A stretch of 64,000 nt of DNA from Aestuariivivens sediminis. Its GTDB lineage: Bacteria > Bacteroidota > Bacteroidia > Flavobacteriales > Flavobacteriaceae. The DNA is taken from NCBI RefSeq assembly GCF_022662105.1, contig NZ_JAKMCP010000002.1, positions 744,001 to 808,000 on the forward strand, written 5' to 3'. Of this stretch, positions 41,996 to 62,989 are shown piece after piece. The notes beneath the pieces were generated by a model, which saw nothing but the letters and a program-made list of their open reading frames with translations, searched no databases and was not told the DNA's origin. Within the stretch, counting starts at the first letter, position 1; each line of letters starts with the position of its first letter. A program made the translations under genes and the position numbers.

Positions 41996-42351
41996 TATGG
42001 GATAAATATATTAAAAAAATCAACGCATGAACCCCTAATAAAATCTGAATATCAAAAGTATACATACGTACTCTGTCCGGTTTTTTTTTGATAATACCAA
42101 ACAATTAATCATACAAAAGGTCCATCCCCCTAAACGATTAAAACTCTTAATTGGTTTAATTATATTATATAAATATCGTTCTCGATAATCCAGAGGCTCT
42201 TACTTTACAATTAAAAATAATAACTTTATAGAAAATCCAGAAACTTAGGCCATTCTAATCTATGGAATACAAGGTGATTCACAGGTTAAAACACCAAGGA
42301 ATTGGGAACCTTGTCGCCAGTGACCTTAAATGATAAAAGTGAAATCAAATT
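41996..42351. other. divergent promoter region of HTCS and GHL10 genes
   Basis: 356 AT-rich bases between two divergent genes. It must hold both promoters, but I see no clear boxes or repeats and no small gene. Confidence 0.55.
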
Positions 42352-43908: not shown

Positions 43909-44239
43909 CCATGGTATCGATCCCCATTTATCCTGTTGGGACTCGCTTCTCCGGGACACATGTTAAACAGGTATGCCGCCAATAGGTTTGGACGTTGTAT
44001 TAGACCTTTTTACAGATGGGTAGCCCTGGAATAATCCTCTGTTGAAGAAAACAAAAAATACCCTTTGTATCCTCCAATGTTTATACGGTTTAAAAAAGAT
44101 CCTCAGAAAACCTGGCTTCTCTTGGCATGGATTTCGGAGTCTTGAAATTGCCTCTAAAAACCAAATCATACAACAAGCTTAACCTGGCTATTCCTGTTTT
44201 TAAAATCCAAGTATTAAACATTATTGTTCTCGTAATATA
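43909..44239. other. gap between convergent GHL10 and GH32 genes
   Basis: 331 bases. One short minus-strand frame (43963-44169) has no family resemblance. No terminator hairpin is obvious. Confidence 0.5.
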
Positions 44240-45781: not shown

Positions 45782-45790
45782 CTCTAAATA

Positions 45791-47110: not shown

Positions 47111-47464
47111 ATCGTTATTAGTTGGTTTAATTTAGTCGTTTAAAGATATCAAATTAAAAGCATTCCCATTCTGAAGCCTTTTACATTTTATTCAGGCTTC
47201 AACCTGTTAATCGGCACAGATTATAGTAACCTTTTACCGCCCCTGCGGTCCAGTGCCCGGTTGAATCAAACAATACGCCATCATACCGGGACACTCCATA
47301 GTTAAGTGACTAAACCCTATTTTAACCTTTCAGTACACTTAAAATAATACCTCCAGATCCTTTCAATTTTTTGATAATACAATGGTTTAGATGGAGGGTG
47401 AGTTCTTCCTCATCATGGCAAATTTTAAATAAAAGTATTATTCATTAGTAAGGTTGGAGTCCAT
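47111..47464. other. gap between sulfatase and sugar porter genes
   Basis: 354 bases. A hairpin with stem TGAAGCCT/AGGCTTCA lies at 47172-47201. A minus-strand frame of 36 codons (47199-47309) reads like protein but has no match I recognise. No gene is called. Confidence 0.5.
47172..47201 (-). terminator. hairpin between sulfatase and porter genes, possible terminator
   Basis: Perfect 8-base stem TGAAGCCT / AGGCTTCA with a 14-base loop, downstream of the sulfatase gene and upstream of the porter start. No T run follows directly, so termination is uncertain. Confidence 0.35.
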
Positions 47465-48880
47465 TTAAGGTCGTTTCGCCTTCAATAATGCTGTCAACTC
47501 GTTTACTAAATCCATATGCTCTTCAGCAATATTTCTCGTCTCTTTTTCCGGTTTCGAATGATCGTACAATTCTACAAAGCCGTCGTTATGTACAACCAGA
47601 CGATGCGTTGTCGTCCTGATGGTCTCAGCTTTTGATGTATAGGCTACAGCCATTTTATCAACAGGGTCTTGTCCGTCGAAAACCCCTTTTAACGAAGTGC
47701 CTTCGGCAAAATCCGGGATGGCGATACCCGTCAATTCACAGAGGGTAGGGAAAATGTCCAAGGTCTCAACGATTTCATTTATGTGTTGACCTCCTTGTTT
47801 GTTAGCCGGATCAAAAATAATAAGGGGGGAGCGTAAGGACTCCTCGAACAGGCTGTGCTTGCCCCAAATAGCATGTTCCCCCAAATGCCAACCATGGTCT
47901 CCCCATAACACCACGATGGTGTTTTTGTCTGCGCCGGTCCGTTTTAATTCCTCCAGAATAATGCCTACTTGTGCATCAGCGTAGGAGACACAGGCCATAT
48001 AATGTCGGCGTACCTCTTCGGCAAACGACGCATCTCGATTGGGATCTTTTCCCCAACGGTTGTATTTCATGAATTCATTGGACTCGTGCCATGTGGTTCG
48101 TCCTTTTGGCTTCTCAGGATGTGCAATGGCAGGTAATGCGCCCTTCTGATACAAATCATAATAGGACTTAGGGGCACCAAAAGGTAAATGGGGTTTTATT
48201 ATGCCCACAGCTAGAAAAAAGGGCTGGTCTTTTTGTGTTGTTAATTCTTTCAACTGATTCGTTGCTTCAGCTGTTATCAAATCATCGGGGTAGACCACAT
48301 CATTACCTTGAGCCGATTGAAATACGTCCATGTGGCCGGATTTTTTCCTGACTTCTCCATTAGCCAGTCCGTGCATGGCTCCACGTGGATGCCTCCATGG
48401 TCCCACAGGCATGAGTTGTTTGTCCCAGGCGTCGGGCATTTCAATAACAGTGCTGTCATTCCAATCCTGGCCCCCTCTTCCACCGGGGTGGTGGGAGACC
48501 TTACCAACAGATACGGTTCTATAACCATAGGATTTGAACCATTCGGGCATGCTGGGTTGTATCGCAGAAGAATTGTCTGTCCTCTTTTGAGCTCTCAGGA
48601 ACAAGGCATTGTTATTGGGAGGGCCGTATTGTCCGGTTAACAAGGTGTATCGCGATGGACCACAACTAGGGGCATTAACATAATGCCTGTGAAAGGACAT
48701 CCCCATTTGGGCGAGTCGATCCATATGAGGAGAAATTATGTGGCTGGCCCCAAAAGCGTTTATCTCCGGACGCAGATCATCAATGCAAAGGAGTAAAATA
48801 TTGGGGCGTTCTTCAACCTCAGCTTGTTTACAATTGAGCAGGCAAAACCATAGAATACCGATAGATAAGATAAATTTCAT
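47465..48880 (-). CDS. type I sulfatase (iduronate-2-sulfatase-like), lipoprotein
   Basis: Removes sulfate esters from glycans. Lipobox ends at Cys17 (CLLNCKQ). Formylglycine site Cys73 in CGPSRYTLLTG; metal ligands in LLCIDDLRPE at the N-terminus and VVLWGDHGWHLGEH later. The layout matches the S1 iduronate-sulfatase-like group. I use ATG 48880 (471 residues), which starts a standard signal; the frame is open to 48901. Activation needs an anaerobic or FGE-type sulfatase-maturing enzyme, not seen here. The esterase gene lies 59 bases upstream. Confidence 0.93.
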   Translation of the reverse strand: MKFILSIGILWFCLLNCKQAEVEERPNILLLCIDDLRPEINAFGASHIISPHMDRLAQMGMSFHRHYVNAPSCGPSRYTLLTGQYGPPNNNALFLRAQKRTDNSSAIQPSMPEWFKSYGYRTVSVGKVSHHPGGRGGQDWNDSTVIEMPDAWDKQLMPVGPWRHPRGAMHGLANGEVRKKSGHMDVFQSAQGNDVVYPDDLITAEATNQLKELTTQKDQPFFLAVGIIKPHLPFGAPKSYYDLYQKGALPAIAHPEKPKGRTTWHESNEFMKYNRWGKDPNRDASFAEEVRRHYMACVSYADAQVGIILEELKRTGADKNTIVVLWGDHGWHLGEHAIWGKHSLFEESLRSPLIIFDPANKQGGQHINEIVETLDIFPTLCELTGIAIPDFAEGTSLKGVFDGQDPVDKMAVAYTSKAETIRTTTHRLVVHNDGFVELYDHSKPEKETRNIAEEHMDLVNELTALLKAKRP

Positions 48881-48939
48881 AGTACATTTAGATAGTTTCA
48901 AACCTTAGAGGTATTTAATGAGCAATAGGATTAATTAAT

Positions 48940-49785
48940 TTATTCGATTTTAATAACAGGGTTCTGACTTAAATACCCAAGGGATTGCAAAAACACATCC
49001 GTGGCATTTACTGTTTTTTCGTAATGTTCAAAATTTCGATTCTTATTAAAAAACCCATGGCCCTGACCATCATATAAATGAAGTTCGCATCGACTTCCCA
49101 CTTTTTCCATTACCATTTGATAGTACTTTGCCGTTTCTACCGGAACCAGATGATCTTCAGTTCCAAAAAACATAATGGTTGGTGGGGCGCCCGATACAAT
49201 ATTGTGAAGGGGTGAAAAGTTTTTATAGGCATAGCCAATGCGATCATAGGCAAAGCCTCCGGGACCATTATCGATTACGGGATTAAAAAGTACCAAAGCG
49301 TTTGGAGCGGGACTAATGGATCCCTGGTCCGTAGGTTCGTTATATTCCGGTATTAAAGCGCAAGCCGCGGCCAAATGCCCCCCAGCCGATCCTCCGGCCG
49401 CTAGAATTTTTAAAGGGTCTATATTAAATAAATTGGCCCGCTCCCTGATGAAGCGCATAGCCGTTTTGGCGTCCTTCAAGGCATCGAAGGGTGTTGTACT
49501 ATACTTTTTGAAGGTCCTATAATCGACCAGGAAACAAACTAACCCTCTTTTAGAAAAATATGTAGCATGGGGTTCAAATTGCGCAATGCTTCCTCCTTTC
49601 CAACCGCCACCAAAAAAGAAAACCATAGCAGGATATGTTTTTGTGGTATCCCTTTGGCTTGGATAATAAACATCCAAATACAACTTTGCAGTATCTATTT
49701 CTTTATACAAAACCTTTTCCTGGGAGGACCCCAAATCGGATATCAAAAGGCCTATTATTAGTATGAATAGTTTCCGCTTACTCAT
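48940..49785 (-). CDS. exported alpha/beta hydrolase (BD-FAE-like esterase)
   Basis: A 281-residue exported esterase. Signal peptide about 1-21 (LIIGLLISDLGSSQ). Oxyanion loop FFFGGGW, nucleophile Ser in GGSAGGHLAA, acid Asp in GTEDHLVP, and His in GQGHGFFNK, the order of the feruloyl/acetyl-xylan esterase-like BD-FAE group. It may remove acyl groups from the glycan. It lies between the sulfatase and the Gfo/Idh gene (17-base gap) on the same strand, so genes from 53.7 to 47.5 kb may form one transcript. Confidence 0.88.
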   Translation of the reverse strand: MSKRKLFILIIGLLISDLGSSQEKVLYKEIDTAKLYLDVYYPSQRDTTKTYPAMVFFFGGGWKGGSIAQFEPHATYFSKRGLVCFLVDYRTFKKYSTTPFDALKDAKTAMRFIRERANLFNIDPLKILAAGGSAGGHLAAACALIPEYNEPTDQGSISPAPNALVLFNPVIDNGPGGFAYDRIGYAYKNFSPLHNIVSGAPPTIMFFGTEDHLVPVETAKYYQMVMEKVGSRCELHLYDGQGHGFFNKNRNFEHYEKTVNATDVFLQSLGYLSQNPVIKIE

Positions 49786-49802
49786 CGAGCCGGGGTGTTA
49801 TC

Positions 49803-51002
49803 TTAAAAACTGTGCTCCGGGTTCCATGGAACGATTTCATTATTGTACATGGCATCCAATCCCATTTGTACGCATATAGCCGCTTTAGCTCCGGTAACCA
49901 CATTGGAAATGGGTTCTCTACCATAAACTATACTATCCCTAAAATCCATCAGGGCCTGCTTGCTTGGATCTTCGTGGGTGATTTCAATAGGCTCACCATA
50001 ATCCCAGGAACGGCCTGGTGCAGTTGCACCGGAAACCCCATCAACATCCCCATACAGGGGTTGTTTCGTTTCTTTCTTCTCCTCAGAATAAAATGTTGCA
50101 GAATCGGTTGTAATTATAAGTGTTCCCTTATCTCCAATAACTTTAATTTGGTACCCATCCTTTTTATTATTGGTAAGGCATGTGAACTTTGCTGTCACAC
50201 CATTAGGATAGCTGTAAAGGACATGTATATTGTCATAGGTCTCTCGTCCATCCTTCCAATAATCAACACCTCCGGTACCCATAACCTGTATGGGGTTGGC
50301 CTTGAGAATGGTGTTGACAAAATCTATTTGGTGGGAACACAATTCAGCAAGCAGTCCACCGGAATATTCCCGATACATCCGCCAATTGATGGCTCTTTCA
50401 AGGCTGGGATCCGGAACCGGTCTTCGCCAGTCGCCATGTCGGTTCCATTGGCACTCAAACGCTGTAATTTGCCCCACTTTACCCCCTTCAATAAGGTTGA
50501 CCACATGTTGGTAAAGTCTGGAACTATGATATTGATGACCGGTTTGAAAAATAATATTGGCGTTTTTTACTTTAGCGATCAAATGGTGGATATCCTGGTA
50601 TCCTTTTGCCAAGGTCTTTTCACAATAAACATGTTTACCGGCATCGATAGCATCCAAAGCGATTTGAGCATGCATACTAAATGGTGTTGCTATAAGGACG
50701 GCATCAATGGATCTATTAGCTAGTAGATCCTTATAATTAGCATATCCCTTGGCTTTCCCATTAGTTCGCTTCAATCCTTCCTGAAGTCTAAAGGGAATGG
50801 TGTCACAACAGGCATAAACCTTTAAATTTTCAATGCTGTTTATAAAAGGAATTAAACCAGTGCCTCTTTGGCCTGTTCCAATAATTCCGATATGTATATC
50901 CTTTTTATCCTTCCGTAAGGCCATATCAGCTAATGCCGATGTACCCGTTAATATGAGGGCTGAAGCTGCGCCCCCTTGTTTTATAAATTTCCGTCTATTC
51001 AT
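49803..51002 (-). CDS. Tat-exported Gfo/Idh/MocA oxidoreductase (first)
   Basis: A 399-residue NAD(P)-dependent sugar oxidoreductase. The start NRRKFIKQGG followed by a hydrophobic stretch is a Tat signal, so it works folded in the periplasm with bound cofactor. Rossmann motif GIIGTGQRGTG; the usual EKP motif reads EKT (HVYCEKTLAKG); the catalytic His region is SGGLLAELCSHQIDF. I start at ATG 51002, giving the Tat motif at once and a 10-base gap to the upstream gene. With its neighbour and the DUF1080 protein it likely oxidises or reduces sugar C3. Confidence 0.87.
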   Translation of the reverse strand: MNRRKFIKQGGAASALILTGTSALADMALRKDKKDIHIGIIGTGQRGTGLIPFINSIENLKVYACCDTIPFRLQEGLKRTNGKAKGYANYKDLLANRSIDAVLIATPFSMHAQIALDAIDAGKHVYCEKTLAKGYQDIHHLIAKVKNANIIFQTGHQYHSSRLYQHVVNLIEGGKVGQITAFECQWNRHGDWRRPVPDPSLERAINWRMYREYSGGLLAELCSHQIDFVNTILKANPIQVMGTGGVDYWKDGRETYDNIHVLYSYPNGVTAKFTCLTNNKKDGYQIKVIGDKGTLIITTDSATFYSEEKKETKQPLYGDVDGVSGATAPGRSWDYGEPIEITHEDPSKQALMDFRDSIVYGREPISNVVTGAKAAICVQMGLDAMYNNEIVPWNPEHSF

Positions 51003-51012
51003 CTCCTTGATG

Positions 51013-52353
51013 TTAAAAAACAGGCTCCCATCCCGGTTCATAGGATCGTGACCATAGGTTCATCGCATCCCTGTTGTACATCATACCGGTTTGGTCATCA
51101 ATATCAAACCCTTGTTTAATTCTATAGGCTATATTGGCGTAATGGACCATGGCCATACTGATACTGGCGTCATCAATGGGAGCAGCCAGGGTAGATTTGC
51201 CCCGTATGGTTTGAAAAAGATTTTGAACATGTTTGGTGGAGGTATCACCACCACCCCCTAAGGCGGTGCCTGCCTCATTCGATTCTGAATCAAATGTTTT
51301 GATGGCTTTACCTGAGCGATCATAAAGCACATATTTACCCCGATCGACATAAACAGAACCTTCGGTCCCGTAAATTATGGTACCACGACCGGTTCCATAG
51401 GTTTTGTACTCATTACGTGATTTACCATCCCATTTAATGATTTTATTATCCGAAAAATTAAACGTGGCCTCCATATCGTCATACATTTCCCAGCCATCGT
51501 TAATAAAGTGTCGCTTTTCTGCTTCAACATAAACACTTCGCGGAAAATTGACTTGTAAAGCCCAGCGTGCCACATCCAGTTCATGGGTGCCATTGTTTCC
51601 GGCCTCGGCCGTACCATAATCCCAACCATACCAATGCCAGTTGTAATTCCATGTTTCAGAAGTATAGGCTCTTCTTGGGGCCGGGCCCTGCCACAGGTCC
51701 CAATCCAATCCTTCAGGTACCGCTGCAGCCTGCTGTAAGGGCACTTCGCCCCGTCCGTTCGAATAAAATGCAAGGGCCTTGTATGGTTTTCCAATGACTC
51801 CATCATGGATCTCCTTAATGATTTCAATGGTGTGACCTGAGGAACGCTGTTGGTTACCCATTTGAACCACTCTGTTAAAATGCTTAGATGCCTTTACCAG
51901 TTGTTCGTTTTCATACATGTTATGACTACAAGGTTTTTCAACATAGACGTGTTTTCCGGCCTTCATGGCCAAGATCGATCCGGGCGTATGCCAATGATCC
52001 GGTGTGGCATTAATGAATACATCAACATGGTTATCGTCCAACACTCTTCTAATGTCATTTTCAAATTTGGGACTGTAATCAATATGTTCTTTAAAGGCCT
52101 TTTGCCCCTTTAAGCCTTGTTTCTCCATGACATCACACAAATAGAGTAACTTAACATTGCTTTCCTTAAGTGCTATGGGCTCAATAAAGGCTCCCATTCG
52201 TCTTCCCAAACCGGCTATGGCAATATTCAATCTCTCGTTTGAACCCATAATGTTACGATAACTTCTAGCGGTCATTGCCATTGCCGAACTTCCCAGAGCT
52301 ATGCCTGTTCCGGCCAAAGTGGTCTTTTTTATAAAATTTCTTCTGCTTGTCAT
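51013..52353 (-). CDS. Tat-exported Gfo/Idh/MocA oxidoreductase (second)
   Basis: A 446-residue paralogue of the next gene. Tat signal SRRNFIKKTTLAGTG; Rossmann motif IAGLGRRMG; intact EKP (HVYVEKPCSHN); substrate-side motif NNGTHELDVARWAL with a catalytic His/Asp pair. Its C-terminal domain is longer than in the first paralogue. The DUF1080 gene ends 2 bases upstream, so the trio is tightly coupled. In the known Bacteroides 3-keto pathway one such enzyme makes the 3-keto-glycoside and another reduces the freed 3-keto sugar; which is which here is unknown. Confidence 0.87.
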   Translation of the reverse strand: MTSRRNFIKKTTLAGTGIALGSSAMAMTARSYRNIMGSNERLNIAIAGLGRRMGAFIEPIALKESNVKLLYLCDVMEKQGLKGQKAFKEHIDYSPKFENDIRRVLDDNHVDVFINATPDHWHTPGSILAMKAGKHVYVEKPCSHNMYENEQLVKASKHFNRVVQMGNQQRSSGHTIEIIKEIHDGVIGKPYKALAFYSNGRGEVPLQQAAAVPEGLDWDLWQGPAPRRAYTSETWNYNWHWYGWDYGTAEAGNNGTHELDVARWALQVNFPRSVYVEAEKRHFINDGWEMYDDMEATFNFSDNKIIKWDGKSRNEYKTYGTGRGTIIYGTEGSVYVDRGKYVLYDRSGKAIKTFDSESNEAGTALGGGGDTSTKHVQNLFQTIRGKSTLAAPIDDASISMAMVHYANIAYRIKQGFDIDDQTGMMYNRDAMNLWSRSYEPGWEPVF

Positions 52354-52355
52354 TT

Positions 52356-53744
52356 TTAAAATTCTCTTATTTTTATACTTCTGAAACTCACATCATTACC
52401 ATGATCCTGAAGTAAGATAGCCCCCTCCGGCCATCTGCCAAAATTTTCCCATTGCTGGTATTTACTGTAATTAACGAGCGCTTCAAACATTGGAGAAAAT
52501 CGATCATATGCCACAACTTTTTCGTTGTTGAGCCAGTGTTCCACTTTTCCGTTTCTTGATACAATTCTGGCTTTGTTCCATTGCCCTATGCCTTTAAAAT
52601 CTTTAGATCGCCCTTTAGTCGATAGGTTCTTTGCCGTAATGAGGTCATAGAGTGAGCCCAGCGTTCTGTTTCCCATCACGCCCATTTTTGCATCCGGATG
52701 CTTCTTATCATCCAAAATCTGAAATTCACAACCAATGGCAGAACCTTCACCCTTGTTCAGTCCGGGATCGACAAAATATTTAATACCGCTATTAGCGCCT
52801 TCAGTAATCTTAAATTCAAGCTCTAATTCAAAATCACTGTACAGTTTTGTGGTAACAATATCTCCCGGGCCTGTGGCTTCGCCACCATCGCTCCCTTTAA
52901 TGCTTAGCACACCGTCTTTGATGATCCAACCGGACTCGGGAAAATCATCTAATTTTGCCCCCCGCCAACCCGTGGAGGTCTTGCCGTCCCATAGCAGTCT
53001 AAAGCCATGATCCTTTTCCCAGGGGGTCAATTCGTTTTTAAGGTAACTTACCTGAGGTACTTCAGGGTCGGCAGTTGTTAGATATTCCTGAACATTTTCA
53101 GTAATGATCCTAATGTTTTTCCACATGACCTTCCTCCCAACTTCTTCTTCCTTTACATTGTGCACTTGCAAACCAATAAAACCGGAAGCCGTCATATCGT
53201 CAACCAATCGGCTTGCATGCTGCCCATTGACAAACGTATTAATTTCATTCCCAAAAGCTTCTATTCGTATGGTATTCCATGTGGCCATTTCAAAGGCCTC
53301 TTGTGCTTTGGTGTTTCTCGTTATGGGATATAACCATTTACGCCGTGCTTCATCATATATGCCTCCTGTCCATTTACGCTTGGTCGGATCTACTTCGCAC
53401 TGATAACCAAAGACCCGTGTTCCGAATTCCTCCTCTCTGGTGTTACTCCTAAACTGGACACCGGAGTTTAATTTATTGGGAAGGAATATCTCTAATTCCA
53501 ATATAAAGTCCGAATAGCTTTTTTCGGTACATAAAAAGGTGTTAAGCCTGTCATTTTTTGAACTGCCGATAATGTTCCCCTCTTGAACAACATAAGTGGC
53601 GGTCCCTCCAACAACTTTCCATCCCTGAAGGTCTTCCCCGTTAAATAAGGATTCCCAATTCTGACTGTAGGTTTGCCCGCAGAAGACCATAAAAACAATA
53701 ATAAGGATTGATCTGAGATACATGTGGTTTTTTTTAAATTTCAT
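52356..53744 (-). CDS. double-domain DUF1080 (3-keto-glycoside hydrolase-like) protein
   Basis: A 462-residue exported protein. Signal peptide about 1-27 (ILIIVFMVFCGQTYS). Two copies of the DUF1080 / 3-keto-disaccharide hydrolase jelly roll: WESLFNGEDLQGWKV opening the first (about 29-215) and FRLLWDGKTSTGWRG the second (about 245-462). Single-domain relatives cleave 3-keto glycosides by elimination. A tandem form may bind longer chains or carry one binding and one catalytic unit. It heads a tight trio with two Gfo/Idh genes. ATG 53723 is an alternative start. Confidence 0.85.
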   Translation of the reverse strand: MKFKKNHMYLRSILIIVFMVFCGQTYSQNWESLFNGEDLQGWKVVGGTATYVVQEGNIIGSSKNDRLNTFLCTEKSYSDFILELEIFLPNKLNSGVQFRSNTREEEFGTRVFGYQCEVDPTKRKWTGGIYDEARRKWLYPITRNTKAQEAFEMATWNTIRIEAFGNEINTFVNGQHASRLVDDMTASGFIGLQVHNVKEEEVGRKVMWKNIRIITENVQEYLTTADPEVPQVSYLKNELTPWEKDHGFRLLWDGKTSTGWRGAKLDDFPESGWIIKDGVLSIKGSDGGEATGPGDIVTTKLYSDFELELEFKITEGANSGIKYFVDPGLNKGEGSAIGCEFQILDDKKHPDAKMGVMGNRTLGSLYDLITAKNLSTKGRSKDFKGIGQWNKARIVSRNGKVEHWLNNEKVVAYDRFSPMFEALVNYSKYQQWENFGRWPEGAILLQDHGNDVSFRSIKIREF

Positions 53745-54321: not shown

Positions 54322-55263
54322 TTAGAAGAACTCACCCGTGTGCTTGGAGGTTTTGAAAATATAATCTACGCCTTTCATCTTTTTTGCCTTGATGAACCAG
54401 GAGATAAATGTAGGCCGTTCAGAAATAGCCAAATTAACCTTCGATAATTTATAGGCCGGTATGGCAGGGTGCGCATGATGTGCCTCATGAAGATTGAAAT
54501 TTAACAAGAAATACCTGGTAAAGCATGCATGGATATAAAAACTTCTAGTGTATTTAACCTGGTCTAAATAGGGTAGGGGTTTCACTTCCTTATGGTTAGA
54601 AACCGGTATTTCAATATGGGAATGTTGCGTCATAATAACCAATTCCTTCAACAATAAACTCATGGCGAAAGCAGGAACAAAAAGATGGACCATAAGTCCT
54701 CCAAAAAAGTAACTCAACAGTATATATATGAGGATATATATTATGGCTTGAGTTTTTACTCTATTATATTTTTTCGGACTTAAGAACCGCTTAATTTTAA
54801 ACAAATTCCAATAATTACTTAATTTATAACTAAGGTAAAACACGGGGATGAATAAACGCCAAGTTATATTGACAACTAAATTTTTTACAGCCGAAGAACT
54901 TGGATTGATGGTAGTTTCAGTGGTAGGGTCTTTATCTCTCCAACCCGTCCATCGATGATGTAAGTTATGCATTTGCTGCCAAGAATAATAGGGGATCATT
55001 GATAGAAAGCCAAACACATGTCCCAGTACTTTATTTATTGATCGTGTTTTAAAAAAACTCAAATGTGCACATTCGTGTAATAAAATAAAGGCCTGTAGAA
55101 AGAAAAATGATAATAGCAGTTGGCCTGTCCAATATAGGATCCCGTCATTATTTGATGAGAGTATAACCCCCAAGCTTAGAAGAGTCATTGGAATTAAAAG
55201 ACTATAAAAGGCAAGATCGTCTCTGGCTTTTAAATTTGAGGATATTGTATTATGCTTATTCAT
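54322..55263 (-). CDS. membrane fatty acid desaturase/hydroxylase
   Basis: A 313-residue integral membrane di-iron enzyme with about four to five helices. The three His boxes are complete: HECAH near residue 63, HNLHH near 100, and HEAHH near 240. It introduces a double bond or hydroxyl into an acyl or isoprenoid chain. It is the last gene of the seven-gene minus-strand operon, 9 bases after the methyltransferase gene. Because the operon holds acyl and prenyl enzymes, the substrate could be the operon's own lipid rather than bulk phospholipid. Confidence 0.9.
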   Translation of the reverse strand: MNKHNTISSNLKARDDLAFYSLLIPMTLLSLGVILSSNNDGILYWTGQLLLSFFFLQAFILLHECAHLSFFKTRSINKVLGHVFGFLSMIPYYSWQQMHNLHHRWTGWRDKDPTTETTINPSSSAVKNLVVNITWRLFIPVFYLSYKLSNYWNLFKIKRFLSPKKYNRVKTQAIIYILIYILLSYFFGGLMVHLFVPAFAMSLLLKELVIMTQHSHIEIPVSNHKEVKPLPYLDQVKYTRSFYIHACFTRYFLLNFNLHEAHHAHPAIPAYKLSKVNLAISERPTFISWFIKAKKMKGVDYIFKTSKHTGEFF

Positions 55264-55272
55264 AGGATTAAA

Positions 55273-56244
55273 TTAGACCTCCATCTTTTCACAAATTACA
55301 GTCTGCATAGAGAGATTCAAATACTTTTGAAACCATAGTAGGGGTGTCAAAATAAGTTGACCTAAAAAGTATGGAAAAATAATATATTTTAGATTTAAAT
55401 TTTTTCCTATTATTTTAAAATATGCCCCGGCAAAAACATAAAAATATGGGGGGAATGCACCCCAAGGTAAATATTTAATCACCTGAAATCCATTTTTTCT
55501 CATCATATTAACAAAGGCTTTTTTATCGTACAAAACCGTGTGTTGAGGTGCTTGAACTCCGGGCCATTTCCTGCCAAATAATCTAAAGGTGGTACTATCT
55601 AATCGTGGGACCTCAATAATGAGTTTCCCTTCTTTTTTAAGTACTTTTTTCGCCATTTGGATCGATTTATTGGGGTCGTAGCAATGTTCTAAAAAGTGCC
55701 ACATGGTCACAACATCGTATCGTTCTTCTTTAATTTTTTGTTCATAAAACAACCCTTCATAGAACTCTATTTTATCAAAATCGGGATAGGCTAATCCCTC
55801 CTTAAAATCCACACCGCTAATGTTAACGCCGTACTTTTTATTTATGTGAAGTAAAAATGTCCCTACGGCGCACCCCACATCAAGGATCTCTGTTTGTTCA
55901 TTGAGGGCAACATGTTTTATAAGGATCTTTTCTTTTTCCCGGTCGTGTTTATTCATGGCCCATTCATATAATGGCGTCAATAGTCCCCAGTTTTTCTTTT
56001 TACGGTGTGCAATATACTCTCCATCATAAAATTCCTTGATTTGATCTATGGATATTCTTGGATTTTGATATACCATCTCACAATTATTGCATTTTACGTA
56101 TTGGAATTCTCCTTCTTTACCCGTTAAATCTTCTTCTCCTTTTAAGAAAAAGGCATAATTGTCGCTATTACAATAATAACAATTAACCGCTTCAAATCGA
56201 TACCTGTCCGGATTTTTGAATTCCTTTAAAAATGAACTCTTCAT
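55273..56244 (-). CDS. zinc-ribbon class I SAM methyltransferase with membrane tail
   Basis: A 323-residue methyltransferase. N-terminal zinc-ribbon-like CYYCNSDN ... CNNCEMVYQNP (about 20-60), then the Rossmann core with SAM motif I EILDVGCAVGTFLLH (about 118-132) and MWHFLEHCYDPNKS. The C-terminus is hydrophobic (PPYFYVFAGAYFKI and FPYFLGQLILTPLLWF), so the enzyme likely sits on the membrane, close to a lipid substrate. It lies 1 base from the UbiA-like gene and 9 from the desaturase gene. The methyl acceptor is unknown; O- or C-methylation of a lipid head is plausible. Confidence 0.87.
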   Translation of the reverse strand: MKSSFLKEFKNPDRYRFEAVNCYYCNSDNYAFFLKGEEDLTGKEGEFQYVKCNNCEMVYQNPRISIDQIKEFYDGEYIAHRKKKNWGLLTPLYEWAMNKHDREKEKILIKHVALNEQTEILDVGCAVGTFLLHINKKYGVNISGVDFKEGLAYPDFDKIEFYEGLFYEQKIKEERYDVVTMWHFLEHCYDPNKSIQMAKKVLKKEGKLIIEVPRLDSTTFRLFGRKWPGVQAPQHTVLYDKKAFVNMMRKNGFQVIKYLPWGAFPPYFYVFAGAYFKIIGKNLNLKYIIFPYFLGQLILTPLLWFQKYLNLSMQTVICEKMEV

Positions 56245-56245
56245 A

Positions 56246-56974
56246 TTATAAATGTGTTAGTATAACATACAGTACTGGAAAATATACCATCATTATATAA
56301 GGGGTAAAATTTTTATCTCTAGCCCTATAGATAAAAAGTAATGGGGCCAAACTCAGGAGACTATTAAAATAGCCTTCCCAAGGTTTAAAAAGCAGGAGGC
56401 TACAGCCTAAAAAAAGTATCATGGGTTTCCAAATGTGATTTGAGTGTCTTTTTACAAGATCAAAACTGTCAAAGCCGGCTATAAGTAAAAAAGAGGCTAG
56501 AAACACCTCTGGTTCTCCACGATAACTTGAGGTTATCGAAACGCAAAAGAGGAGTACAGGGTATTTTAATAATGGAATTATTTTTAATAGGAACAAATGA
56601 CGTCCAAATAAAAGATATAAAACCACTGAACCTGCCAAGAGCAAAAGGATTATTAAAAAAGCAGACGGAAAAACAAGACTAACAGTTAAAAGATAAAGCC
56701 CTATTATTAGTCCCGTTACTTTTTTAAATAATTTAAATCTGGCAGGGACTAGATAGGTCCTTTCGGGATGTTCTTTTATGTCTGTTTCAGCTGAAAAAAT
56801 ATCATCAACTATTCTAAAGACAATAAAAGACGAAAATAAAAACACCATTGAATAAAGCCAGATCCCCAAAGTGTCATTGACAGAAAGAATTAAAATAGTC
56901 ATAAGAATCGTTAATCCAATCAGCGGAATTAGATGAATTCTAATTTTTATATAATCTCTTAAAACTGCTATCAT
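56246..56974 (-). CDS. divergent UbiA-like membrane prenyltransferase
   Basis: A 242-residue protein of seven or eight helices. The first Asp-rich motif of the UbiA family is recognisable but altered: RIVDDIFSAETD at residues 54-65, with Asp57, Asp58 and Asp65 kept and the middle Asp replaced by Ser61; KEHPERT follows as in UbiA (KPDRP). The second motif may be FDSFDLVKRHS. UbiA enzymes transfer prenyl chains to aromatic, haem or glycerol acceptors. It overlaps the dikinase gene by 4 bases (ATGA). Family call moderate; activity unproven because a metal ligand is missing. Confidence 0.62.
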   Translation of the reverse strand: MIAVLRDYIKIRIHLIPLIGLTILMTILILSVNDTLGIWLYSMVFLFSSFIVFRIVDDIFSAETDIKEHPERTYLVPARFKLFKKVTGLIIGLYLLTVSLVFPSAFLIILLLLAGSVVLYLLFGRHLFLLKIIPLLKYPVLLFCVSITSSYRGEPEVFLASFLLIAGFDSFDLVKRHSNHIWKPMILFLGCSLLLFKPWEGYFNSLLSLAPLLFIYRARDKNFTPYIMMVYFPVLYVILTHL

Positions 56975-59403
56975 AAAATTATAATCTTACCCAGATCGCC
57001 ATCTAATATGACTTCATCATGATCCTTTAAGATCTCTGTAATATTTGTGATTCCAATCACTGCAGGAATTCCAAATTCTCTTGCTACAATCGCGCCATGA
57101 GACAACGCACCACCACGTTCAACAATTAGTCCTCCAATTAACGGGAATACCATAGCCCAGCCTGGATCTGTCTGTTTAGTGACTAAGATATCTCCTTTGT
57201 TCAGCTTAGGGCTTTCTAATACCGATTCCAGCACTTTTATTCTTGCCTTTATCCTGCCCCCGCTAACCGCCAGCCCATTATATTCTGTAAAATCTCCCGT
57301 AAAGGAAACTTCTTCATATATCGATTCTGGACGTTCACCAAAATTAGTGGTGAAATTTTCAGGATATTTGTTTTCAGATTCAAGACTAAATCGAGCACGG
57401 CGTTCTTGAATCAATGGTCTGAGATCTTTGGAAAACATCGTTGAAGATGATACGCATTCTCCAATCTCTTTATAACTCATAAAAAACATATCATCAATAT
57501 GTTCTATTTTATTTTCTTCTTTAAACTGAGCTCCGATCTTTTTAACCACAGTTTTAAAATAATAATACATTTCAGCTTGTTTATAACGCACCCTTTCTCG
57601 ACTTGAAATGGCTTGTTTGCAAAGTTTTGCGCTTAGATTTAGTATCCCGACCTCAACAAATGATATCGGAAATAACAGAGCCCTTTTTTTAATTATTTTC
57701 CACGCAAAATGGCGCATAGCTCGTCTACGCTCTCGATCTTTAATGGCAATTACTTCTCGAGGATCTTGAGCATTTTGGGCCATATACACTTTTAAGAGCT
57801 CTATAAATTTCGCCGGCTCTTCAATATAATTGGTACTCAAAAACATAAGTTCTCCCGAACATCTAAATCCCCATTTTTCAAGATAGGAATCCAGGGTTTC
57901 CTTCAGTTGTAAATAACTCGGATTCTCTTGAATTTCCTGATATACTTCCATGGATGAATGAGACTGAAAAAAGGCCTTTATTTCGTTATTATTATTGATT
58001 TCTTGAACCATATCATAGGTGTCATTTAATGGTTCACTACTCATTAATCCAGGAATAGCCTGTACTAAAGTATTGTGCATTCCAACACTTTTCTCACCAT
58101 AAAATTTCTGAGTTATTCCTCCTAAAACGCTATAATGTATCATAGAGAAAAAATCTGCTAAACTTGCACGATACCATTGATTGAATCTCAAATCTAAGAA
58201 GTTGTAGAACAAGGTTTCCAGGGGAACGTTATTACCCTTTTTACGTGCATTCAAAGCAAAATCATCAACCATCAATTCGATACTTTTAACATGCTTTTCT
58301 AAAGAAAAATTTAATCGGATAAGACGAAAAATAAAAGGAATCAAAGATGTAGATTTTGAAGTATCTACTTGAGCAACATCCTTTTCAGAATATCCTACAA
58401 ATTTATTAAATGCATCTTTGAAATACGCTTTTAATGGCGATGAAGACAGAATATTATGAATACTGGTCATGTTGTAATACAGTCTGTTACCCCAAATACC
58501 AACCGTATTACTAAAATCATATTCCAATTTGCGGAGGCTGCTGTTATGGATTTGTAATAATCCTGCCAGATTTTTAAAATAATGATAATACGAATCCCTT
58601 GCTATCGAATACAATAACGGCGATATTGGCGTGGGATAATTCTCGTTTAAATTGGTGTTCGACCAATGCACTTTCTTTTTTCGAAGAACGGTGATCGGTC
58701 TGGCTTGTACAAAAAAAAGGCTTTGCCCTTTAGACACCCATTCAATATCGATATGATAGCCATACTTTTCTTTTAACGTTGTTGCCAACCGAATCAATTC
58801 AACCCCATTAAAAGGAAGTTCGTCTTTAGGTGTTAAGGTGAAATCAACTGAGAAACTTTTGGGTGTTACTTTTCCCGTAACCAATTGTTCGCCATCTCCT
58901 TTTACATATTCTGTATAGATTTGGTCCGCATGATACGGAGAAGATGTAAATGTTACTCCTGCGTAATCCGCTTCCACAAATTCTTGAATTACCACACCCA
59001 TTTCCATGAGCTTCTTTCCGGAAAGGTTTTCATACGCAATGACTCTGTCATTTTTAAGACCATTCCAACAGTTCCGGATTGCTTCCAGTGCCTCTTCTGT
59101 CTTGTTATTCACCACGAAAGAATCTAATTGGCCAGCAAATGAAAAACTATCAGAATCTTCTCCAATGGCAGAGCTTCTTATGATTATTTTTCGAGAATTC
59201 AGAGTAATTAAACAACTCTCCAAAGCGTGTTTAAACCCATTAGGTAAAGTGTTATTTTTAGAATAAAATTCCAACACTCCTTTAGAAATGGCATAGCCGT
59301 CAGGTACCGAAAAACCATATGCAAATAGCGCAGAAAGACTTGCGGCTTTTGCTCCTACCAAATCAGTAGACAAGGGTTCTTTAAGGGATTGTATATGGTT
59401 CAA
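56971..59403 (-). CDS. rifampin-phosphotransferase-like dikinase (PPDK_N plus swivelling His domain)
   Basis: An 810-residue enzyme. The N-terminal ATP-grasp domain is of PEP-synthase type (about 10-235; VGAKAASLSALFAYGFSVPDGYA, IIIRSSAIGEDS, FAGQLDSF). A long helical middle (about 250-690) opens with HWSNTNLNENYPTPISPLLY. A C-terminal swivelling domain holds catalytic His769 (ERGGALSHGAIVAREFGIPAV). There is no PEP-binding barrel, so it matches rifampin phosphotransferase: ATP is split to AMP and phosphate and the beta-phosphate goes to an alcohol bound in the middle. Rifampin itself is unlikely; within this operon a prenol, glycerolipid or mevalonate-like alcohol is a good guess. Confidence 0.82.
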   Translation of the reverse strand: MNHIQSLKEPLSTDLVGAKAASLSALFAYGFSVPDGYAISKGVLEFYSKNNTLPNGFKHALESCLITLNSRKIIIRSSAIGEDSDSFSFAGQLDSFVVNNKTEEALEAIRNCWNGLKNDRVIAYENLSGKKLMEMGVVIQEFVEADYAGVTFTSSPYHADQIYTEYVKGDGEQLVTGKVTPKSFSVDFTLTPKDELPFNGVELIRLATTLKEKYGYHIDIEWVSKGQSLFFVQARPITVLRKKKVHWSNTNLNENYPTPISPLLYSIARDSYYHYFKNLAGLLQIHNSSLRKLEYDFSNTVGIWGNRLYYNMTSIHNILSSSPLKAYFKDAFNKFVGYSEKDVAQVDTSKSTSLIPFIFRLIRLNFSLEKHVKSIELMVDDFALNARKKGNNVPLETLFYNFLDLRFNQWYRASLADFFSMIHYSVLGGITQKFYGEKSVGMHNTLVQAIPGLMSSEPLNDTYDMVQEINNNNEIKAFFQSHSSMEVYQEIQENPSYLQLKETLDSYLEKWGFRCSGELMFLSTNYIEEPAKFIELLKVYMAQNAQDPREVIAIKDRERRRAMRHFAWKIIKKRALLFPISFVEVGILNLSAKLCKQAISSRERVRYKQAEMYYYFKTVVKKIGAQFKEENKIEHIDDMFFMSYKEIGECVSSSTMFSKDLRPLIQERRARFSLESENKYPENFTTNFGERPESIYEEVSFTGDFTEYNGLAVSGGRIKARIKVLESVLESPKLNKGDILVTKQTDPGWAMVFPLIGGLIVERGGALSHGAIVAREFGIPAVIGITNITEILKDHDEVILDGDLGKIIIL

Positions 59404-59924
59404 AAATTCCTTTTAATTTTAATTAACACTAACAGTTGACTGATCCCTAAATGTAAAATCATGCCTATACAAAACAGAAATACAACAGTCTTAAACGATA
59501 TTACTGTTGCTAAAAAGTAAAAGACTAAAACACCGATTAAAGAATCTGATTTATCCGTAAAGGTTTGCAGATATTTGTACTTTTTTGACTGTTCTCCATT
59601 TGCTATTCCTAACCTTCTTTTCACAAATGAATTAGGCAACTCCGCCAGGATATAAGCCAGTCCAAGTCCAAAGCCGACAAATGCATCATTTGCCACCGAT
59701 ATTTCGAATGGACCGAACGAAACACTATTTACTAAAGCTATTGCTCCTGTTAGGGCCGGTAGTACAATGATTCCTCTGTAGGTTTTACTATTCCCAAACC
59801 ATTTTTTTGATATAGGGAAAGCCAAACCACTAAACCAATTCCGATGGACAATAATCATGTGCAAAACATTTCCAATAATTAAAGGAATGAAAAACAGATA
59901 TATGTGGATATATAAATTATTCAT
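59400..59924 (-). CDS. CDP-archaeol-synthase-like (CarS family) membrane protein
   Basis: A 174-residue membrane protein with four or five helices. Family motifs: NSKTYRGIIVLPALTG (family NKTWRG), LAYILAELPNSFVKRRLGI, and FTDKSDSLIGVLVFYF with the catalytic Asp pair. CarS/CdsA-like enzymes use CTP to activate a lipid phosphate as a CDP-lipid. CarS itself acts on unsaturated archaetidic acid in archaea, though relatives are known in bacteria. The ORF begins right at the HMGR-kinase stop and overlaps the dikinase start by 4 bases. It suggests that the operon makes a CDP-linked prenyl or acyl lipid. Confidence 0.8.
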   Translation of the reverse strand: MNNLYIHIYLFFIPLIIGNVLHMIIVHRNWFSGLAFPISKKWFGNSKTYRGIIVLPALTGAIALVNSVSFGPFEISVANDAFVGFGLGLAYILAELPNSFVKRRLGIANGEQSKKYKYLQTFTDKSDSLIGVLVFYFLATVISFKTVVFLFCIGMILHLGISQLLVLIKIKRNF

Positions 59925-62249
59925 TTATGGCATCTTTTTAACCGAATCCAACATATTAAATGATGTTGTAAACACTCGTTCAATAAATGGGTAATTCATT
60001 AAGATGCTTCCTGTCAAATAAAAATTAACTCTTGAAATTAAAAATGCCAGGCCTCCCAGTTTAAAATCATGCAAATAATCGGACCAACTGTAATCTTCAT
60101 TATTCATGGATTGAACCCGTGTAAAATGATATTTCAATATGTCCCCTAAATCCGAACACTCAAAATCAGGTGTTAATGTAAAGGCCAATAACTCAAATAT
60201 ATCGCGATGCGGAATCCCGTAGATTGCTAACTCCCAATCATAAATACAAGGGTCTCCATTAGCTCTTATTGCAATATTCCTTGGATTAAAGTCATTATGA
60301 ATCAGGCTCATTTTACTTATCGGCTTATATCCGTTATTGCTCGAATCATTTATAAAATCCCTTAATTCATCAAAACGATGATCTGCATTTAAATAGTCAT
60401 AATCCTTTCTGTTCAAATCCACAAAAGCATTGTATAGCTTAAGTGCCTTTTGGATAGCAAAGACCTCTATAGATTCCAATTTGTTCTTATCATACTGAAA
60501 ATGGACATGTACAAGATGAATGCTGTCTATTGTTTTTTTAATAAATGGGATGGTCCATTTTTCAGGAGTGGATTCAGAATTCATTAATAGCATATCTCTT
60601 GAATCCAAACGCTCCATAAGAATCAAATAAATTTCTCGATCTCTGTTCCTTACTGTCCCATATAATCGAGGCATATACGAAAAACCAATACTTTGCAATG
60701 CTTCATAAACTGCCAATTCTTTAATATGGTTGTCCTTATATTCCAAGGCATTATAATGCTTTGCAAGAATATCCGCCAAATCAACACTAACATTACTTGC
60801 CATAAAATGTAAGCCATCCAAAACTTCCTTACCAAGTGCCTTGCTTTTTAGTAATAAGGGATAGTGTTGCCCATCTGCTGTATGGATATCTGCCTGAATG
60901 AATCCTATGACCTTTTTAGTAATCTTCTTTGTTAAATCAGTTAGAATTCCGTTGTCTAAATGGACTTCATTATCAAAACTTACACGGTCAATGGTATCCC
61001 TAAAGTATGGCGTATTCATTTTAACGAAATTCATATCAATTTCAGATGCCAATAACCATTTTACAGGTTTATTCCTTCCTAATTTTTGATGTGCACGCGC
61101 AAATTGACCGCTCACAATGGCAGCCAACGTCGAAATTTCTATGGATAAGGCAAATCCCGCAATTAACTTTGCAAACCGCTCTACCTTTCCTGCCCCACTG
61201 CAGTCCATCAATTCTAATATTCTGGAAGGCACCGGTAAATGGGTGCCACCACCAACCGTACCTACAACTAAGTTAGGAAGCACTAAGGATAAGTATAACC
61301 CCTCTTTTGTTTGTTCTATCTGCAAAATCCCGATAGAAGATTCATGAATACATGCCAAATCCTGACCTGTAGAAGCATATATTCCGGCAATGGCATTTGC
61401 CACATTCACATTATGTCCCACCATCCCATCTAAACGACTAATGGAAAGCGAATGATTATAGGAACTAAACATATCGTTTGCATTCGTTCTCAATGTTTTT
61501 TCAATAACTTCATTGGTAAGAAAGCATTCGCTAATGACGTGACATCCTCTTCCATTTTGAATGGCATAAAAAGAAACTTTTTTGTCTGATGCACCATTCC
61601 CTTCAATAACAAAATTTAAGATCTCTATATTGGTCTCAAGTTCAAAGTTCTCTTCAATCCACAAACAGGCATTCCAGGTACAAGAAGTGGTCATATTTTG
61701 TCCGGAAGCATCGCTTGTGGAATACACAAACTTTAGATGTACAATTTTTCCAATAATAACACTTCCAATTTCAAGTAATTCGGCATGATTACTATGCCGT
61801 TGTGCTTTTGCCTTTATTTTTTTGAAATTTCTTTTAATCCATTCATCAAAAGCAATAGATTCAGACAGCCGCTTAAAGGTATACATGGGAGTTCTAACCA
61901 TCTTTTGATGCACAATATGAGCTTCAAACCCTCCACACTCACTGATCGCCTTAATCCCTCTGTTCATACTTGCTACTAAGGCTCCTTCTGTTGTGGCAAC
62001 AGCACTATGAACCCATTCTAGCTTTTTATCTTTATCAATAAATAACAGGGGGCCAACCAATCCTAGTGGAATTTCGACGGTTCCAATAAAACTTTCAATA
62101 TTGTTTTGTATTTGAAATAGCCCTATGGATTCAGACTTTATAGCCTTACTAATATCTTTAGATAAGGTTTCCAAATAATTCATTCTTAAATCGAACGCCG
62201 TTTGGTTCATTAACCCTCTACCAGGGGCCTGTTGATATTTTGCATTCAT
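59925..62249 (-). CDS. class I-like HMG-CoA reductase fused to an APH-type kinase
   Basis: A 774-residue fusion. Residues 1 to about 430 are HMG-CoA reductase with every catalytic residue: Glu89 (ATTEGALVAS), Lys223 (SDKKVS), Asp297 (STGQDLA), His387 (ARAHQKLGRN); also the NADPH loop DASGQNMTT at 180-188 and VGTVGGGTHLP at 329-338. The pattern follows class I (eukaryote/archaeal) enzymes. Residues about 455-774 are an aminoglycoside/choline-kinase-like domain: Lys468 or 470, catalytic HNDFNPRN at 651-658 (Asp653), metal Asp671 in YDWE. The obvious idea is mevalonate made and then phosphorylated. ATG 62249 overlaps the upstream stop as ATGA; an earlier TTG is unneeded. Confidence 0.88.
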   Translation of the reverse strand: MNAKYQQAPGRGLMNQTAFDLRMNYLETLSKDISKAIKSESIGLFQIQNNIESFIGTVEIPLGLVGPLLFIDKDKKLEWVHSAVATTEGALVASMNRGIKAISECGGFEAHIVHQKMVRTPMYTFKRLSESIAFDEWIKRNFKKIKAKAQRHSNHAELLEIGSVIIGKIVHLKFVYSTSDASGQNMTTSCTWNACLWIEENFELETNIEILNFVIEGNGASDKKVSFYAIQNGRGCHVISECFLTNEVIEKTLRTNANDMFSSYNHSLSISRLDGMVGHNVNVANAIAGIYASTGQDLACIHESSIGILQIEQTKEGLYLSLVLPNLVVGTVGGGTHLPVPSRILELMDCSGAGKVERFAKLIAGFALSIEISTLAAIVSGQFARAHQKLGRNKPVKWLLASEIDMNFVKMNTPYFRDTIDRVSFDNEVHLDNGILTDLTKKITKKVIGFIQADIHTADGQHYPLLLKSKALGKEVLDGLHFMASNVSVDLADILAKHYNALEYKDNHIKELAVYEALQSIGFSYMPRLYGTVRNRDREIYLILMERLDSRDMLLMNSESTPEKWTIPFIKKTIDSIHLVHVHFQYDKNKLESIEVFAIQKALKLYNAFVDLNRKDYDYLNADHRFDELRDFINDSSNNGYKPISKMSLIHNDFNPRNIAIRANGDPCIYDWELAIYGIPHRDIFELLAFTLTPDFECSDLGDILKYHFTRVQSMNNEDYSWSDYLHDFKLGGLAFLISRVNFYLTGSILMNYPFIERVFTTSFNMLDSVKKMP

Positions 62250-62989
62250 ACGGTTTTGCAATTAGGATTTAACGCATTGAAACGGTTTACAAAAACGGTT
62301 CTAACATCATTAATGTGTTTATCGAGATTATCCATATTCCAATCTTTTGTAGAAATTTCATCCAATAGCTCAATACCTAAAGTTCCATTTTTAGCATATT
62401 TAAAGTCGGTCATATTACTCTCTTCGGGCACATGAATATAAAGAGGAACAATGGGCAAGTTTGCCTCCAATGCCATTTTATAAATCCCTCTATTAAAAGG
62501 CGCTATTCCATGAAAATGATCGTGAACGCCTTCTGACGAGGCTGCAATGGAATATTTCGATTTTATTAAAAATTGGGTGGTGTTTTTAAAGAACCTCTTG
62601 CGCCTTTTTGCGTGTTTTTTTTGAGGTATATAGCGCGTTCCAATGGATATAGCGGAAACTAGAATTGGAATGTAAATCCAGGTCTTTTCGGAGAGTACAA
62701 ATCTGGTATTCTTGAGTCCCAAAGCGGTTAAAAGTAAAATATCTTGTTCTGCGTTGTGATTAAAAGTATATAGAACTTGATGCTTAGGAAATTCGCTTAA
62801 GGATGGGTAAAAACTTTTGAAACCCATGACTGTCAGTATGAACCGAGAAGAATACCTGATTATATAGGTAATACAAAAGCCTCTGAGTAATCCAAAACTT
62901 ACAATAACAAGAAATAAAGAAATGCTTCCTGTAATTAACATAATTGTTAATCCTGTAATCCTCCTGTAGATTGTGATAAGGACTTTCAA
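62246..62989 (-). CDS. PlsC-like 1-acylglycerol-3-phosphate acyltransferase
   Basis: A 247-residue membrane-bound LPLAT acyltransferase. An N-terminal helix (about 12-40) is followed by the HX4D motif HNAEQD (about 77-82), the motif III variant SSEGVHDHF (usually FPEGTRS), and motif IV LPIVPLYI. It transfers an acyl chain from acyl-ACP or acyl-CoA to a lipid alcohol. It starts with TTG at 62989; the first internal ATG would remove part of the anchor. It is the first gene of the seven-gene operon and overlaps the HMGR-kinase start by 4 bases. Confidence 0.87.
   Translation of the reverse strand: MKVLITIYRRITGLTIMLITGSISLFLVIVSFGLLRGFCITYIIRYSSRFILTVMGFKSFYPSLSEFPKHQVLYTFNHNAEQDILLLTALGLKNTRFVLSEKTWIYIPILVSAISIGTRYIPQKKHAKRRKRFFKNTTQFLIKSKYSIAASSEGVHDHFHGIAPFNRGIYKMALEANLPIVPLYIHVPEESNMTDFKYAKNGTLGIELLDEISTKDWNMDNLDKHINDVRTVFVNRFNALNPNCKTV

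Follow-up and report, generated by a model that had tools for sequence, protein, structure and literature searches.

The window analysed here, a stretch of 64,000 nucleotides from Aestuariivivens sediminis (contig NZ_JAKMCP010000002.1, positions 744,001 to 808,000), carries a gene that joins a 3-hydroxy-3-methylglutaryl-CoA (HMG-CoA) reductase (HMGR)-like domain to a kinase domain of the APH type. The open reading frame (ORF) is a single one of 774 residues on the minus strand, running from an ATG at 62249 to a stop at 59925 with no internal stop. Its reductase half matches Pfam HMG-CoA_red over residues 20-392 (E 8.8e-97) and its kinase half Pfam APH (PF01636) over residues 495-703 (E 7.9e-9), in agreement with the earlier note, which had proposed the fusion from the letters alone. 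No split of the frame was seen: it is intact, and likewise 774 residues long, in two relatives (84% and 83% identity), which rules out a sequencing artefact, and the fusion is confirmed as a genuine single protein.

The catalytic residues of the reductase half are Glu88, Lys223, Asp297 and His387; the earlier note had named the same lysine, aspartate and histidine and had set the glutamate one position too far, at 89. Residue counts were made on 53 of 66 fusion loci (the near-complete ones, window included) and a Streptomyces fusion, 54 sequences in total: Glu88, Lys223 and Asp297 are each present in 54/54 and His387 in 52, the two gaps stemming from the shortened sequences of loci L118 and L187. 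The kinase motifs run from His651-Asn-Asp653 to Asn658 and over Tyr-Asp671-Trp-Glu673, the HNDxxxxN and YDWE motifs reported before, and H651, D653, N658, D671 and E673 are invariant in 53/53 aligned fusions. With these residues intact, both halves look active, as had been supposed.

An AlphaFold2 model of the window protein, built from 53 aligned fusions, reached a mean pLDDT of 89.6 and a pTM of 0.67, and in Foldseek its best PDB match, at 38% identity, is 6hr7, the HMGR of Methanothermococcus (TM 0.85, scaled to the length of the target); the best 50 matches are all reductases, and the listing is therefore uninformative on the kinase fold. By its fold and its catalytic Glu, Lys, Asp and His, the protein belongs with PF00368 (HMG-CoA reductase), and it shares these features with the class I enzymes of human, Arabidopsis and Methanothermococcus (6HR7/6HR8). 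The class I model TIGR00533 scores 265.4 bits against 31.2 for the class II model TIGR00532, which supports the earlier view of the reductase half as a class I-like relative; class I proper, as NCBIfam draws it, begins at a curated cut-off of 441.8 bits, which it does not reach. A separate class II HMGR, the kind that the earlier note expected in such bacteria, is encoded elsewhere in the same genome (TIGR00532 294.9 bits, cut-off 259.95).

On the kinase side, PF01636 is matched by 15/15 kinase domains scanned, and with the H-N-D..N and D-x-E motif residues this places the kinase half in the APH superfamily. A Pfam scan of the fusion gave no match to the GHMP domain, so that it is no GHMP mevalonate kinase by that measure. 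A profile of the 15 domains, searched against the PDB, found two aminoglycoside phosphotransferases (4e-6 and 7.1e-6) and then ACAD11 (5.9e-5); the choline-kinase Pfam model matches 6 of the 15 weakly (best E 6e-4). The nearest precedent that we found for such a kinase joined to an acyl-CoA oxidoreductase is the ACAD10/ACAD11 pair, which according to PMC11342911 carry a kinase and an acyl-CoA dehydrogenase in a single protein and phosphorylate 4-hydroxyacyl-CoAs. Like the fusion, they unite a kinase and an acyl-CoA oxidoreductase in one chain; unlike it, they are mammalian, use another oxidoreductase family, serve breakdown rather than synthesis and, in ACAD10, hold the kinase in the N-terminal part (PMC11342911), whereas it is C-terminal in the bacterial protein. 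Another HMGR-kinase fusion, of 780 residues, lies in genome G815 (L181:6130-8472), with a gene for mevalonate-diphosphate decarboxylase some 1 kb away; here too the kinase part comes after HMGR in a single frame, as GHMP kinase domains, which belong to a different kinase family. Among the matches listed in the open-licence literature, which we searched with only one query aimed at the fusion itself, there was no account of an HMGR-APH fusion or of a phospholipid pathway of the kind proposed below, in keeping with the earlier note's remark that no such fusion was known to it; one paper (PMC12419801) names a GHMP kinase alongside HMG-CoA reductase, and in a legend APH-type kinases, for gene neighbourhoods other than this one.

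The fusion occurs in the window's own family and beyond it. Among 397 genomes of the family, 7 have a full-length match, the window's genome being one of them, 1 more has the reductase part only and another the kinase part only; among 395 genomes of the phylum there is a match in 32, and all but that of the own genome cover the reductase part only. A scan with one genome per species gave 80 loci, the best 80 of 89 relatives, and 65 of these hold an ORF of more than 600 residues with both parts, the other 15 (L110, L113, L114, L117, L119-L122, L124, L125 and L127-L131) being split, truncated or kinase-less. By record title the fusion loci are mostly from Bacteroidota, with L112 (Gammaproteobacteria), L116 (Pseudomonadales) and L118 (Thiomargarita) from outside it; L073 and L111 are metagenome-assembled genomes (MAGs) with taxon labels that we do not vouch for. 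A plasmid of Streptomyces sp. NBC_01435 carries a full-length fusion (33% identity over 98%). In a FastTree phylogeny of the reductase domain, rooted on the HMGR of a mevalonate operon, the 54 fusions group together in a single clade (support 0.95). Two proteins that lack the kinase, L113 and L114, are nested inside it, suggesting a single fusion event followed by losses of the kinase. A mobile origin was considered and rejected: the fusion gave no relative in viral contigs, searched with the fusion alignment, or in phages, the CarS-like neighbour protein gave none in a viral search, and there was just the one full-length plasmid match.

The substrate site of the reductase is altered throughout. 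In human HMGR, Lys735 forms a salt bridge to the terminal carboxylate of HMG, as PMC9500038 states. The corresponding column is residue 266 when the human enzyme is aligned by HMMER and 267 when it is aligned by MAFFT, and Lys is found in 0/54 fusions at either. At the position of Ser684, which we take to contact the same carboxylate, the fusions have Glu (49) or Asp (5), so that neither residue typical of class I HMGR proper is present; the human residues are assigned in the alignment provisionally, by their motifs. The GMN motif reads GQN and His752 is Asn in 54/54, and the positions of Glu559, Asp690, Lys691, Lys692, Asn755 and Asp767 are unchanged in 54/54. Besides these substitutions, the attached kinase and the lack of a tie to the mevalonate pathway set the fusion apart from class I HMGR. 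Stand-alone relatives (n=30, including L113, L114, L183 and 17 of 20 further regions, the remaining three, L146, L149 and L150, having no frame with the motif searched for) share the GQN motif in all 30 and an acidic residue at the Ser684 position in most (Glu 27, Asp 1, Ser 1, Ala 1), and keep His752 in 28; at the Arg590 position of the printed segments, the window has Thr, and the stand-alone proteins of L019, L021, L129, L132 and L133 have Lys or Arg. Five comparison reductases came from plasmids, and only the Streptomyces one sits in a mevalonate operon: this annotated control keeps the Ser and the Lys and has GHN instead of GMN. Two Vibrio and one Alteromonas comparison reductases are GQN-type, and the Sinorhizobium one is divergent. 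From these patterns we infer that the fusion clade retains the chemistry of HMGR and has lost its grip on the HMG carboxylate; some activity on HMG-CoA may persist.

Markers of the isoprenoid pathways were tested in 33 genomes, 27 of them fusion carriers. HMGR was found in 33/33, DXR, an enzyme of the methylerythritol phosphate pathway, in 11/33, and the mevalonate-diphosphate decarboxylase model TIGR01240 matched with E <1e-40 in 20/33; in a set of 14 control genomes the model also matches 8, including E. coli, with 2 of these matches above cut-off, and weak matches therefore carry little meaning. Seventeen of the 27 fusion genomes look mevalonate-type, with a decarboxylase match of E <1e-40, no DXR and exactly two HMGRs each. 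The window genome has its decarboxylase-like gene elsewhere (165.2 bits, just below the cut-off of 171.35); the second HMGRs of L184 and L185 look similar, as read by eye, to its class II enzyme, the class II model having been run on the second HMGR of the window genome. Nine of the 27 carry DXR and no decarboxylase match save one of 1.5e-4 in G806; in seven of the nine the fusion is the sole HMGR found, G812 and G813 having one additional HMGR. In a further fusion genome, G809, neither DXR nor decarboxylase was found. AcnX, a marker of the anhydromevalonate route, was above cut-off in 0/15 genomes tested, the nine with DXR included, with weak partial matches in G799 and G806. The HMG-CoA synthase models PF08540 and PF01154, run on 30 genomes, gave no match in the nine DXR-type genomes, and each also misses 11 of the 17 mevalonate-type fusion genomes, which makes them uninformative as markers. 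In the genomes tested the fusion does not follow the rest of the mevalonate pathway in its occurrence, although most of the DXR genomes are MAGs of unstated completeness.

In the window, the fusion belongs to an operon of seven genes with 4-base overlaps or gaps of at most 9 bases, in the order PlsC, fusion, CarS-like, PPDK-like, UbiA-like, methyltransferase and desaturase (Table 1).

Table 1. Genes of the operon around the fusion, with positions in the window
Feature	Position	Strand	Evidence
PlsC-type acyltransferase, 5' of the fusion, 4-base overlap with the fusion start	62246..62989	-	PF01553, E 2.7e-12
HMG-CoA-reductase-like domain and APH-type kinase domain, 774 residues	59925..62249	-	Pfam, ORF, AlphaFold2 model
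CarS-like protein, abutting the fusion stop	59400..59924	-	PF01864 (CDP-archaeol synthase family), E 2.4e-8
PPDK_N / PEP-utilizer dikinase-like protein, 810 residues	56971..59403	-	
Possible UbiA-like protein	56246..56974	-	no Pfam match; NCBIfam EboC 18.9 of 250 bits, E 7.6e-4
Methyltransferase	55273..56244	-	PF13489, E 1.3e-21
Fatty-acid desaturase-like protein, final gene of the tight run	54322..55263	-	PF00487, E 9.5e-32

The CarS-like protein, of a CTP-transferase family, passes the gathering score of PF01864 (34.6 bits, cut-off 22). Genes neighbouring the fusions match PF01864, PF01148 and PF01066, like CarS and CdsA and the CDP-alcohol phosphatidyltransferases; unlike CarS proper, the CarS-like proteins scored remain under the cut-off of the CarS equivalog model PRK04032 (49.7 of 148 bits in the window, and 55.1 of 148 bits). 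Neighbours were counted in the DNA around 66 fusion loci, on either strand, under cluster names based on one or few scanned members. Downstream DNA of 800 bases or more is available at 57 loci, and at 38 of these a CarS-like gene comes next, within 150 bases and in the same orientation. Over all 66 loci, CarS-like genes are near 40, PPDK-like near 34, desaturase near 22, CDP-alcohol transferase near 21, PlsC near 10, PEMT-like near 7 and TMEM164 near 3, with UbiA (cluster 6) near 10 and a weakly named UbiA-like cluster 7 near 13; at least one of these families, PPDK-like included, is present at 56/66. The methyltransferase family marks the operon form of the window (12/66), and a second form consists of fusion, CarS-like, CDP-alcohol transferase and GtrA-like genes, the last at 10/66. 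At two loci, L112 and L118, the fusion is followed by a gene that itself encodes a CDP-alcohol transferase fused to a CarS-like domain. A pair of P-loop (thymidylate-kinase-like) genes and an NTP_transf_5 gene are each near 10/66 fusions, several of these with the PPDK-like gene (e.g., L067:13263-18636).

Stand-alone reductases have surroundings of their own. In genome G039 (76% complete), a GQN-type reductase without a kinase precedes genes for a SEC59-like protein, a CDP-alcohol transferase and a CTP_transf_1 protein; as the last is also present, the SEC59-like protein is free to be a kinase and is a candidate replacement for the missing domain. Genes for SEC59-like proteins are near 12/28 stand-alone reductases (L019, L021, L121, L122, L124, L125, L127-L131 and 17 further regions) and near 0/66 fusions. 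The model of the family (pLDDT 82.8) shows long helices packed into a bundle, in the way of membrane proteins. Other stand-alone clusters combine the reductase with UbiA, PPDK-like, DUF3419 (BtaA-like), SEC59-like, GNAT-like and AMP-ligase genes, and in L116 a fusion lies inside such a cluster, with no SEC59-like gene seen.

Taken together, we lean, by a little, towards the fusion being a bifunctional enzyme of a phospholipid pathway for which we found no description. The reductase domain would use two NAD(P)H to turn an acyl-CoA, though not HMG-CoA, into a primary alcohol, as the intact HMGR catalytic residues suggest. Our best guess for the substrate is a 3-hydroxyacyl-CoA, which would yield a 1,3-diol, because Asp690, Lys691, Lys692 and Asn755 around the cis-loop are kept and the lysine for the terminal carboxylate is lost. 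The APH-type domain would then phosphorylate the alcohol, as its fusion to the reductase suggests; the CarS-like enzyme, so often the next gene, would convert the lipid phosphate to its CDP derivative; and a CDP-alcohol phosphatidyltransferase, where present, would add the head group. PlsC acylates lysophosphatidate, and in the window operon it would acylate the second hydroxyl of the diol. More tentatively, and with rather less confidence than doubt, we consider that the product could be a phospholipid backbone free of glycerol, in which a (3-hydroxy)acyl-CoA would become a diol and, after phosphorylation, acylation or prenylation and CDP activation, receive a head group; if so, the whole GQN-type branch, whose proteins are now named HMG-CoA reductase, would belong to lipid synthesis and not to the mevalonate pathway. 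The fusion, its distribution, the altered HMG site, its occurrence relative to the two isoprenoid pathways and the neighbouring genes are observed, whereas the substrate and each chemical step are deduced from sequence. Were the phospholipid reading right, a bifunctional enzyme and a lipid route, both undescribed, would be shared by Bacteroidota, certain proteobacteria and a plasmid of Streptomyces, some "HMG-CoA reductase" genes of bacteria with the methylerythritol phosphate pathway would not be mevalonate enzymes, and the HMGR fold would be seen redirected to another acyl-CoA.

Several observations weigh against the phospholipid reading. The next gene is no recognised CarS-like one at 19/57 loci, no lipid-type neighbour was seen at 10/66 (some contigs being short), and within 14 kb either side of the Streptomyces fusion, tblastn with cluster members gave AMP-ligase-like matches only; the PPDK-like, UbiA-like, P-loop and NTP_transf_5 neighbours have no explanation in the scheme. 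The Lys735 column is uncertain by one, and the flanking positions 265 and 268 hold Lys in 6 and 13 of 54 fusions; the GHN of the control makes GQN alone weak as a marker, and an acidic replacement of Ser684 is no obvious fit for an alkyl chain. A kinase role for the SEC59-like protein is our assumption from its motifs: Pfam, NCBIfam and PDB sequence searches with the family gave no match, the fold match of its model to CDP-DAG synthetase is poor (E 0.38, TM 0.37), and no SEC59-like gene is in the map of 16/28 stand-alone reductases or of the kinase-less fusion-clade loci L113 and L114. In the pathway survey, just four of the 20 TIGR01240 matches with E <1e-40 are above the curated cut-off of 171.35 bits (three in fusion genomes), the others scoring 141 to 169. 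All nine DXR genomes were reached via loci and are mostly MAGs of unstated completeness, so that where a decarboxylase or another HMGR is absent it may be missing from the assembly rather than from the organism.

Of the alternatives, the one that fares best makes mevalonate, or a similar hydroxy acid, the head group itself: in the manner of the Kennedy pathway it would be phosphorylated, activated with CDP and transferred to a diacylglycerol. HMG-CoA can arise from leucine breakdown and might be supplied from there, and both the weak choline-kinase matches and the CDP-alcohol transferases near 21 loci would suit such a route; CarS/CdsA-type enzymes, however, have the phosphates of membrane lipids as substrates, the HMG site is altered, and the presumed kinase of G039 belongs to a family modelled as a long-helix bundle like membrane proteins, and we regard this route as unlikely. 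Quite unlikely, in our judgement, is an arrangement in which the domains act on separate substrates, the kinase taking another lipid or small molecule and being fused for co-expression or scaffolding. APH-type kinases act on many substrates, and in genome G418 a stand-alone APH/EcKL-type kinase lies together with AMP-ligase, DUF3419, PPDK-like and UbiA genes in a lipid-like cluster (L020:6044-14148), a search of that genome finding no class I-like reductase; a single fusion clade kept across distant phyla and the SEC59-like genes, near 12/28 stand-alone reductases and near 0/66 fusions, nevertheless suggest linked steps.

The earlier note had raised a further possibility, that mevalonate from the reductase is converted by the APH domain to phosphomevalonate, giving a bifunctional enzyme for isoprenoids. 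Catalytic residues are kept in both halves, the HMGR-GHMP kinase fusion near a decarboxylase in G815 makes a channelled enzyme plausible, and UbiA-family proteins, which use prenyl donors, are encoded nearby. We nonetheless rejected mevalonate supply as the main role and hold it very unlikely: 9/27 fusion genomes carry DXR but lack a convincing decarboxylase (mostly MAGs of uncertain completeness), AcnX is above its cut-off in none of these nine, a second HMGR is present in 17/17 mevalonate-type genomes, the window's own included with its decarboxylase-like gene elsewhere, the HMG-site residues are changed, and many of the neighbours are of phospholipid type. Similarly improbable is a role in archaeal-type isoprenoid lipids, with the UbiA-like and CarS-like proteins making and activating a prenylated glycerol phosphate and the fusion supplying precursors only: such neighbours are there, the window genome encodes a PcrB/GGGP-synthase homologue (E 1e-36), and Bacteroidetes GGGP synthases are reported to use sn-glycerol 1-phosphate (PMC7852524), but the homologue is on a different contig (C5) and the DXR-type genomes have no known route for using mevalonate made by the fusion.

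Some minor observations concern other HMGR homologues and the rest of the window. Two proteins encoded on Vibrio replicons (L188:6767-8026 and L189:3767-5029) are GQN-type with Asp for Ser684, and the second is annotated as hydroxymethylglutaryl-CoA reductase; these GQN-type proteins may be misnamed. Another kind of GQN-type stand-alone homologue, of 514-588 residues, occurs in L135-L142, L144 and L147, adjoined by an ArsA-type ATPase gene in L138, L141 and L144. On a Sinorhizobium plasmid (L191:4872-6116), an HMGR-like gene is accompanied by genes for acyl-CoA carboxylase, biotin carboxylase and indolepyruvate ferredoxin oxidoreductase. Within the window, positions 37886-53744 are likely a carbohydrate-use region, with genes for a hybrid two-component regulator, GH32, a sugar transporter, a sulfatase, Gfo/Idh/MocA dehydrogenases and a 3-keto-disaccharide hydrolase.

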